A stretch of DNA of 64,000 nt, from contig NZ_JAHXBG010000006.1 of NCBI RefSeq assembly GCF_020103725.1, positions 434,001 through 498,000 of the forward strand, read 5' to 3'. The DNA is from Hyalangium gracile. Its GTDB lineage: Bacteria; Myxococcota; Myxococcia; Myxococcales; Myxococcaceae. The notes beneath the pieces are model-generated. The model was not told where the DNA came from. It saw only the letters and a list, made by a program, of their open reading frames with translations, and did no database searches. How positions within the stretch are numbered: position 1 is the first letter of the stretch; the number at the start of each line of letters is the position of its first letter. Positions 21,223-23,243 of this stretch are shown piece by piece. The translations under genes and the position numbers were made by a program.

Positions 21223-22908
21223 TCAGGTTCGCGGGTCTGGCCAGAAGGGCACGGCGCGCCGAGGAGGCGTGAGCCACTGCGACTGGAGGAAGCGCACCGC
21301 GGCCTGGTCCTGCGCGTGGTGCTTCGTGGTGGCTCCCTGCAGTGCCAGCAGCAGCGCCGCCGTGAGCATGCCGCCGAACAGCACGGTCGGCGCGGGGATG
21401 CCCACCTCGGCCGCGCCCAGCCGCAGGAAGACCCAGCCCGCCATCGCGAGCAGGCCCACCAGCAGCGGGAGTCCCGCCACGGGCTGCGAGATGCCCCAGA
21501 AGCTCAGCACGGTGGGCGGCAGGTAGCCCGACTTCAGCAGCGGTACCGCCAGCCCGAGGAAGGCGTTGGAGACATCGTCCGGCACGTAGTTGATGAACGT
21601 CGCCGCGCCCGTGATGACGATGGAGACCATGCACGCCGCCGCCGCCGCGCCCAGCAGCCATCCGCGCTGTCCCGCGCGCAGCCGTTCCAGCAGCAGGCCC
21701 GCCGGCAGCAGCAGGAAGGGCACCAGCCCCGTCAGGTGCCGAGGCCCCGTCGTCCAGCCCCACGACTCATAGGTGAACGACGAGGTGAAGTACGTGTAGC
21801 CCGCCAGCACCGCCGCCGAGAGCCAGAACAGCGCTCGTGACTCCACGGACGCCCGGCCCTCGCGACGCAGCAGCACCAGCCCCGGCAGCGCCAGCAGCAG
21901 GAACGGCGACAGCGTGAAGAGCCCACGCAGCGGACTGAAGTAGGAGAGGAAGAAGGCTCGCGGATCCGGATAGCGGATGCCCAGGAAGCCTCCCAGGTGC
22001 CACGGCTGATACGCCGCGTCGTTGAGGTGCTTGTAGCCGCTCTCCAGCGGGTGCCCGAACGCCGCCTGGTGGTAGAGCATCAGCCCCACCACGAAGGGCA
22101 GCGCCCCCAGCGTGGCCAGCCCCGCCGCGCGCCCCAGCCGGACGAGCCGCTCGCGCATGGGCTCCTGCCGCCACAGCACCGTCAGCACCGCGTACAGCAC
22201 CAGCGCGAGCACCGCCATCGCGCCCGTGTACTCCGCGGCCACCGTCGCTCCCGCGTACGCCCCGGCGACCAGATAGCCGCGCTCGCGCCACTCGCCGCGC
22301 GCGCACCGCCACAGCGCGTAGAAGCTCCCGAAGAGCAGCACCGCCGTCGTCTGGTGGCTCATGAAGAGCAGCGAGTAGCTGTACGCCAGCGAGCCCAGCC
22401 CGTACGTCACCGTCACCGCGTCCGCCACGCCCGGAGTCACGTACGTGCGCAGGAAGCGCCGCACGCCCCACAGCATCAGCAGCGTCGGCAGCACCGTGAG
22501 GAACAGCCGGGTGAAGAAGACCAGCGGCACCTCCGGCACCGCGTACCGGAAGCCGCCGCCCACCACTCGCAGCGCCGCGTAGATGGGCACCGCCGCGAAG
22601 GACAGCAGCGGCGCCTTGGACGAGTAGTACTTCCCGTCCTTCACCGACAGGTCCCCCACGTAGCCGTAGTCCTGGAGGGCCTGGTTGATCTCCAGCGTCC
22701 CGTACTCCACCAGCGCCCGCGTCTGCCACAGCCGGCACAGCTCGTTCGGCGAGCGCAGTCCCGGGTGGTACGGGAACGCCAGCACATACAGCGCCACCAG
22801 CACCGCCCACACCACCCGCGGCATCCGGTCCGGCGCCGCCACGGGAGCCGTCGAGGACTCCGCCGTGCTCGGAGCGGCGGGCTCGGCCTGTCGGGGCGCC
22901 GTGCTCAC
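21223..22908 (-). CDS. GT39-like multi-spanning glycosyltransferase/membrane protein
   Basis: 561 aa from a GTG that overlaps the P-II stop by 4 bp (GTGA). After a short cytoplasmic Pro/Ala/Thr-rich tail there are about 10-12 hydrophobic segments. The first periplasmic loop has [19 protein letters not shown] and a [13 protein letters not shown] stretch resembling the loop-1 acidic region of polyprenyl-phosphate-sugar-dependent GT39/GT-C enzymes. The classic DE pair is not obvious; SPNE may stand in its place. The likely role is transfer of a sugar from a lipid carrier in the periplasm. The operon partner is a GT2-methyltransferase that could make such a lipid-linked sugar. Confidence 0.65.
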
Positions 22909-23243
22909 AGCGCCTTGCTACCGCGCTCCCCGGTGCGGATGCGGATCACCTCTTCCACCGGCATCACGAAGATCTTCCCGTCGCCGATCTTCCCCGTCCG
23001 CGCCGCGCCGACGATGGCCTCCACCACCTGGCCCACCTGCTCGTCGTCCACCACCACCTCGAGCTTCACCTTCTGCAGGAAGCCCACCGACGCCTCGGCG
23101 CCCTTGTAGAACTCCGTGTGGCCCCGCTGCCGCCCGAACCCCTTCACATCCGTGGCCGTCATGCCCTGCACGCCCAGCCTGTGCAGCGCTTCCTTCACCT
23201 CTTCCAGCTTCGACGGCTTGATGATGGCTTCGACCCTCTTCAT
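22905..23243 (-). CDS. P-II family signalling protein lacking Tyr51
   Basis: 112 aa, full family length and aligned without gaps to E. coli Gln[11 protein letters not shown] start, [12 protein letters not shown] before the T-loop, and [11 protein letters not shown] for ATP binding. At position 51, the Tyr that is uridylylated in GlnB/GlnK, this protein has Ala ([11 protein letters not shown]), while Tyr46 is kept. It therefore cannot be uridylylated at the usual site, though ATP/ADP and 2-oxoglutarate binding look possible. No amtB or glnA is adjacent. Instead it overlaps by 4 bp at both ends with glycosyltransferase genes, which suggests it monitors energy or carbon state for that pathway. 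Confidence 0.92.

Follow-up and report, generated by a model that had tools for sequence, protein, structure and literature searches.

The locus raised the question of whether a P-II signal protein of Hyalangium gracile, which has alanine at the uridylylation position (51) and whose gene lies between two putative sugar-transfer genes, regulates these neighbors. The window, the whole stretch of 64,000 nucleotides that was analyzed, contained the features collected in Table 1. A preliminary description had taken the operon position to suggest that this P-II reports ATP and 2-oxoglutarate to lipid-linked sugar transfer. The survey of 96 family genomes pointed to a remnant, perhaps put to another use, of a control cascade that has been taken apart, rather than to a clear regulator of sugar transfer.

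Table 1. Positions of the P-II gene, its parts and its neighbors in the window.
Feature	Position	Strand	Basis or remark
P-II (GlnB-type) signal protein	22905-23243	minus	ATG to TGA, 112 aa; sole PF00543 match in the genome
Codon 51 of P-II, GCG (Ala); Tyr in relatives	23091-23093	minus	sequence and alignment
T-loop codons 42-57 of P-II	23073-23120	minus	substitutions Y51A, D54G and P57Q; the 13 relatives do not vary at these sites
ATGA start/stop overlap of P-II with upstream gene	23240-23243	minus	sequence
GTGA stop/start overlap of P-II with downstream gene	22905-22908	minus	sequence
GT2-like and methyltransferase fusion (GTMT), upstream of P-II	23240-24712	minus	Pfam, NCBIfam
Membrane glycosyltransferase (GT39-like) of 561 aa, probably with a GT-C fold, downstream of P-II	21223-22908	minus	structure model
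Wzc-type polysaccharide chain-length / tyrosine kinase gene, divergent from the operon	24618-26990	plus	profile scans
Omega-aminotransferase gene	16340-17674		
Type IV pilin PilA gene	34453-35358	minus	PF14245, 182 bits

The P-II frame matched the Pfam family over the whole profile (positions 1–102 of 102; 119.1 bits, E = 1.2e-34, cut-off 25), and a gapless alignment with five solved P-II chains (2eg1, 1hwu, 2gw8, 3n5b, and 8wm7) placed its Ala51 opposite a tyrosine in each of them. Both the frame and Ala51 were thus as first described. The scores against the two best NCBIfam P-II equivalogs (149 and 147.6 bits) were below their cut-offs (202 and 181, respectively). The genome in which this single P-II was found (G000) comprises 11.7 Mb in 81 contigs and was rated 100% complete. 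At 19 of the 20 positions that we take to contact ATP and 2-oxoglutarate in P-II, the protein had the residue of most relatives; the twentieth was L28M, and methionine at position 28 occurs in solved P-IIs too. The residues for ATP/ADP and 2-oxoglutarate thus appeared to be kept, and the protein would presumably bind these ligands.

The 4-bp overlaps with both neighbors were also found as described. The upstream gene had been called a fusion of a GT2 glycosyltransferase with a methyltransferase. The methyltransferase domain was clear (Pfam Methyltransf_23, 56.7 bits); the GT2 part was weak in Pfam (22.7 bits, cut-off 23.3) but was recognized by the NCBIfam model AglJ (E = 1.4e-14), with a score well short of the cut-off set for AglJ. 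The coordinates of the fusion gene (GTMT) were counted from the first GTG, and its true start is probably further in, because most relatives align only from residue 11–43 and the frame as counted overlaps the divergent gene at 24618. Residues 119–121 of GTMT, a GT2-type motif, were EPD in H. gracile and H. versicolor (G041) and DPD or DAD in the 25 other rows covering the motif; the sugar-transfer half may be altered in this lineage.

The downstream enzyme, previously described as GT39-like, was without a Pfam match, and its NCBIfam match to a putative glycosyltransferase was weak (24 bits, cut-off 200). The AlphaFold model built from 13 sequences had a mean pLDDT of 73. Its best Foldseek match was ArnT (E = 2.7e-4, TM 0.43, 16% identity), and other GT-C enzymes were also close. 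The modeled structure suggested that the enzyme likely has a GT-C fold, and that its class is likely GT-C rather than GT39 itself.

No nitrogen gene was found near P-II among the 19 window genes scanned, as had been stated before, and the omega-aminotransferase gene was among the genes of the window. A scan for sigma-70 promoters found none where 0.2 were expected, which is uninformative for this organism. The Wzc-type kinase gene was the first gene of an adjoining polysaccharide cluster, and the pilA gene was located inside this cluster. Myxococcus xanthus AM003 (L042) had the same arrangement with a kinase 69% identical, and P-II was not seen in the locus fetched from it. The BPS pathway of M. 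xanthus is reported to include WzcB, which has a fused kinase domain (PMC7310880). The Wzc-type kinase in the window may be orthologous to this WzcB.

PF00543 was found in 38 of the 96 family genomes. P-IIs that were 66–100% identical to that of H. gracile were present in 15 genomes (L001–L015), each time as the sole P-II match. Position 51 was Tyr in 13 of these 15 (GAEYVVDF or GAEYTVDF). The corresponding T-loop motif was GAEASVGF in H. gracile and GSESASVGF in H. versicolor, which had one extra residue, so that its aligned position 51 was Ala or Ser depending on where that residue was placed; the variant ASVGFLQK was common to both species. A further strong match (L016 in G042; 96 bits, 49% identical, different T-loop) was set apart from the 15. 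Together with L017 and L018 (G068 and G061), it represented a third P-II type, ~49% identical, with a T-loop unlike that of GlnB (GHQRGRNG and similar). Two genomes of genus g19 carried other P-IIs, and in G078 (C2:2617-2930) two adjoining P-II fragments, one read through an in-frame TGA, were likely a pseudogene.

In 14 of the 95 other family genomes, this P-II was likewise accompanied by at least one enzyme gene of the pair, and in 11 of them it lay between both. In G043, P-II preceded the GT-C gene, and a partial GTMT match was found 3.4 kb upstream. H. versicolor and G035 kept P-II and GTMT, and the GT-C gene was absent by search and by reading of the locus; the search for the GT39-like protein scored the first 16 candidates in most genomes (16 of 27 in G041, 16 of 19 in G035). 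Where the GT-C gene was expected in H. versicolor (L117, 5136-6590), a convergent gene resembling a multi-pass membrane glycosyltransferase was read by eye. The upstream 4-bp overlap (ATGA or GTGA) was present in 13 of the 15 P-II loci and the downstream one, in frame, in 11; L002 and L004 were exceptions to both, and L007 and L011 lacked the downstream gene of the operon.

Both enzymes were far more widespread than P-II, with GT-C matches in 85 of 96 genomes (E ≤ 1e-20) and GTMT matches in 80 (E ≤ 1e-60). The pair count used 70 of these 85 and 73 of these 80, leaving out the 15 and 7 lower-scoring genomes. The counted genomes with both enzymes numbered 67, and the two genes were on the same contig and strand in 59 and split over contigs in eight. 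Of the 59, 13 had P-II with the pair, and 46 had the pair adjacent with no P-II between; these 46 are related to one another and not independent cases.

The closest genomes recorded how the gene may disappear. In the GTMT tree, G040 grouped with H. gracile and H. versicolor (support 94/93 for the trio and 94/81 for the H. gracile–H. versicolor pair, neither starred). The P-II slot of G040 contained an ATG-to-TGA frame of nine codons (MSERGSLTP, then stop) with the ATGA and GTGA overlaps kept. Its ERGS matched the C-terminus of P-II and arose at the slot in 14 of 200000 shuffles, for a motif picked post hoc with 10 junctions inspected. The other four genus-mates were without a P-II match. In G036, whose clade is presumably Stigmatella, the slot held a three-codon frame only. 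We interpret these short frames as traces of in-frame deletions that removed P-II, for G040 at least.

Beyond the family, the H. gracile P-II was searched against 195 genomes of the phylum and matched in 93. Loci were obtained for the best 30 matches, comprising H. gracile, H. versicolor, and L191–L218 (20 outside the family and eight inside). Among these best 30, all 28 of L191–L218 had Tyr51. GSI was next door in four of the 20 outside loci (L193, L212, L213, and L218), and neither enzyme of the pair was near P-II in any of the 20 (stretch of at most 1.5 kb on each side). Since all 28 best other matches have Tyr51 and the outside loci are without the enzyme pair, the ancestral residue was most likely Tyr51, and placement of P-II among glycosyltransferase genes seems to belong to this family, as represented by the Myxococcaceae genomes surveyed. 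Ala51 homologs were not mostly beside amtB or glnA among L001–L030 and L191–L218, a setting that would have spoken against the role first suggested; the nearest case, H. versicolor (Ala or Ser), sits behind the same GTMT gene.

The GlnD/GlnE profile PF08335 had no match in H. gracile or in the six other genomes of the genus; GlnD and GlnE were distinguished by score and frame length. A GlnD query of 834 aa, its C-terminal end cut by the locus and its identity confirmed by TIGR01693 (650.7 bits, cut-off 519.4), had no match at E ≤ 1 in H. gracile, G040, and G038, one noise match in H. versicolor (10 bits, E = 0.68), and a match of 85% identity in G034. The earlier argument that GlnD cannot modify this P-II was supported: position 51 is Ala, and the genome yielded no match to GlnD or GlnE. 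PF08335 was present in 15 of the 96 genomes, namely all 13 with a Tyr51 P-II plus G045 and G082. GlnD occurred in 12 of the 13, the thirteenth (G080) had GlnE but no GlnD match, and the two genomes with Tyr51 lost had neither. Counting the 15-locus type of P-II, P-II and GlnD occurred together in 12 genomes, P-II alone in three (H. gracile, H. versicolor, and G080), and GlnD alone in two (Fisher P = 6e-11, kinship among genomes ignored). The loss of Tyr51 goes with the loss of GlnD/GlnE and not with the neighbors. Three genomes count against a picture of cascade loss: G045 (95% complete) and G082 (82%) had GlnD without a P-II match, and G080 (86%) had P-II and GlnE without a GlnD match.

The genera differed in how much of the cascade they carried. 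P-II, GlnD, and GlnE were found together in all six Archangium genomes, with GSI present in the two tested. The four genomes of genus g7, which we take to be probably Cystobacter-type, had GlnD without GlnE and a Tyr51 P-II, with one marginal 26-bit match added in G032; GSI was not found in the two tested. In the genera that we take to be of the Stigmatella, Myxococcus, and Corallococcus types, neither the 15-locus P-II type nor PF08335 was found. Adenylylatable GSI was detected among ten genomes checked only in G003, G007, and G081; GlnE was confined to the same three among these ten. The motif KDIYGLSPEE, presumably marking the adenylylation site of glutamine synthetase, was present in L166–L168 among the translations of eight glutamine synthetase loci. 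H. gracile had only two genes with a glutamine synthetase domain, and both differed from the GSI type of those three genomes. NtrC was an uninformative marker, for the profile TIGR01818 matched 14–31 times in each genome at E ≤ 1e-100 without exceeding its cut-off in 10 of 10 genomes.

AmtB was found in 87 of the 96 genomes, and H. gracile had a single match, on another contig (C30) than P-II. AmtB was considered as a dedicated surviving partner of P-II and rejected, since the scores of AmtB in the five P-II-less genus-mates fall into the same class; P-II may still bind AmtB. The scores fell into classes of ~380–396 bits in most genomes of P-II-less genera and ~415–447 bits in most GlnD-bearing genomes, as if the transporter had been exchanged together with the cascade. 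Exceptions were G080, G043 (no match), and the group with amtB-linked P-IIs (~400–421 bits).

Taken together, we consider it fairly probable that the P-II of H. gracile is an ordinary GlnB inherited in place, around which the control cascade was dismantled. The ancestor of the family would already have had glnB between the GTMT gene and the GT-C gene, where it would have served the usual GlnD-PII-GlnE-GSI circuit; the parts present in Archangium-type genomes suggest that this circuit persists there. GlnE, the adenylylatable GSI, and GlnD would then have disappeared from the lineage of H. gracile, and Tyr51 and neighboring T-loop residues would have changed too. The combinations present, read without a dated tree, suggest that GlnE and GSI went first, GlnD and Tyr51 next, and P-II last. 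The remaining unmodified P-II, if active, would bind partners directly according to ATP/ADP and 2-oxoglutarate, as is thought for the unmodified P-IIs of archaea and Bacillus. The glycosyltransferase neighbors would be the old address of P-II and not its target.

The evolutionary rates bear on what became of the protein. Between H. gracile and H. versicolor, P-II had 10 nonsynonymous and nine synonymous changes (dN/dS 0.35 by plain Nei-Gojobori), and the ratios for GTMT, the kinase, and the aminotransferase were 0.24, 0.25, and 0.17, respectively. Three disjoint pairs of Tyr51 relatives gave 0.03–0.16, with five nonsynonymous and 22 synonymous changes in all (Fisher P = 0.025 against the Hyalangium pair); a fourth pair, L006/L009 (0.32, five changes), shares a row and was left out of this count. 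On the stem leading to the two species the ratio was roughly 1. Among 78 sites invariant in the 13 relatives, 16 were changed in H. gracile or H. versicolor and 11 in both, including F11, Y51, D54, and P57. The T-loop sites (4 of 12 changed) were not significantly enriched (P = 0.20), and the depletion at invariant ligand sites, taken from the contact positions above (1 of 17 changed, L28M, vs. 15 of 61 others), was only suggestive (P = 0.08). The orphaned P-II thus seems to have evolved fast on its stem and to be still under weak purifying selection; the numbers are small and the signal is mixed between re-use and decay.

These rates would also suit a P-II that lost its targets with GlnD, GlnE, and GSI and is drifting toward loss as in the sister lineage, its frame surviving because selection would remove deletions that uncouple the downstream gene. 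The ratio near 1 on the stem, the crown ratio above those of the three Tyr51 pairs, and the changes at four residues invariant in 13 relatives are what such decay would leave, and the in-frame remnant of G040 and its P-II-less genus-mates may show its end. However, the excluded pair of Tyr51 relatives also had a high ratio, and the nonsynonymous changes between the two species were below neutral (P = 0.026, 19 changes only). The P-II frame was intact in both species, the ligand-site residues were kept, and the two share their T-loop variant. We regard simple decay as unlikely.

A regulatory role, in the form in which it might still hold, would be specific to Hyalangium: the P-II, freed from GlnD-GlnE and with a re-made T-loop, would couple ATP/2-oxoglutarate to the co-translated GTMT or to the GT-C enzyme. 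The fast stem includes T-loop changes, although not in significant excess, and P-II stays in the operon with conserved 4-bp overlaps after the cascade is lost. However, the same overlaps surround Tyr51 P-IIs in GlnD-bearing genomes, where no new role is needed. The step from operon position to a role in lipid-linked sugar transfer was not supported, for 13 relatives had a Tyr51 P-II at the same place (12 with GlnD), 46 genomes had the adjacent enzyme pair without P-II, and H. versicolor and G035 retained P-II without the GT-C gene. H. versicolor keeps GTMT beside P-II though the GT-C gene is gone, and if there is regulation, the soluble-looking GTMT is most plausibly the partner. We consider such a captured sensor improbable; if true, P-II would control glycan assembly via GTMT.

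That a foreign P-II replaced the gene in its slot, through transfer or gene conversion, is very improbable. In its favor, the H. gracile–H. versicolor pair stood on a long stem (0.36 changes per site) outside the remaining P-IIs of the family (which grouped with support 83/88), and the best outside-family P-IIs with loci were 68–72% identical, about the same as family ones. Against it, a tree of 112 residues with a long branch has poor resolution, the slot and its 4-bp overlaps are the same, and no donor with the same T-loop was present among the loci read (L001–L030 and L191–L218).

Compared with the known GlnB/GlnK proteins (PF00543), the P-II of H. gracile is full-length and gapless with the ligand residues kept, and it is probably a vertical relative of the Tyr51 P-IIs that this operon encodes in related genera. 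It differs in lacking Tyr51, D54, and P57, in a genome without a GlnD/GlnE match, and in not being beside glnA or amtB. Unmodified P-IIs of archaea and Firmicutes are often amtB-linked. The H. gracile protein resembles them in that it must work by ligands alone, but its probable ancestor is a Tyr51 GlnB, and its gene has glycosyltransferase neighbors. The amtB-linked P-IIs of the family also lack Tyr51, but they are 45–49% identical to the H. gracile protein (L019–L030, where tblastn scored) and have a different T-loop. A P-II without Tyr51 adjoined amtB in G049:C362 (amtB 7047-8243, P-II 8294-8632), G052:C42, G089:C438, and G091:C35, and these genomes were without a PF08335 match. No modification of P-II is reported for archaea and Firmicutes, and the binding of GlnK to AmtB reportedly follows nitrogen status with Tyr51Ala nearly as well as in the wild type (PMC4285133). 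Therefore, the loss of Tyr51 alone means neither a lost nor a new function.

By title and the start of the abstract, none of the literature matches listed dealt with P-II beside glycosyltransferases or with P-II loss in myxobacteria, and the search yielded no paper on P-II and GlnD together in myxobacteria. The locus also warns against reading a role from operon position by itself, as a general nitrogen sensor has long been located between sugar-transfer genes that manage without P-II elsewhere. The rare part of the finding is a P-II that outlives its own modification cascade. The family looks like a natural series of the dismantling of a textbook circuit, from the full cascade to GlnD with a Tyr51 P-II, to a lone unmodified P-II, and to none. 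The lone P-II of Hyalangium, as an intermediate in this series, lets one ask what P-II does once its modifying enzyme and its best-known target are gone.
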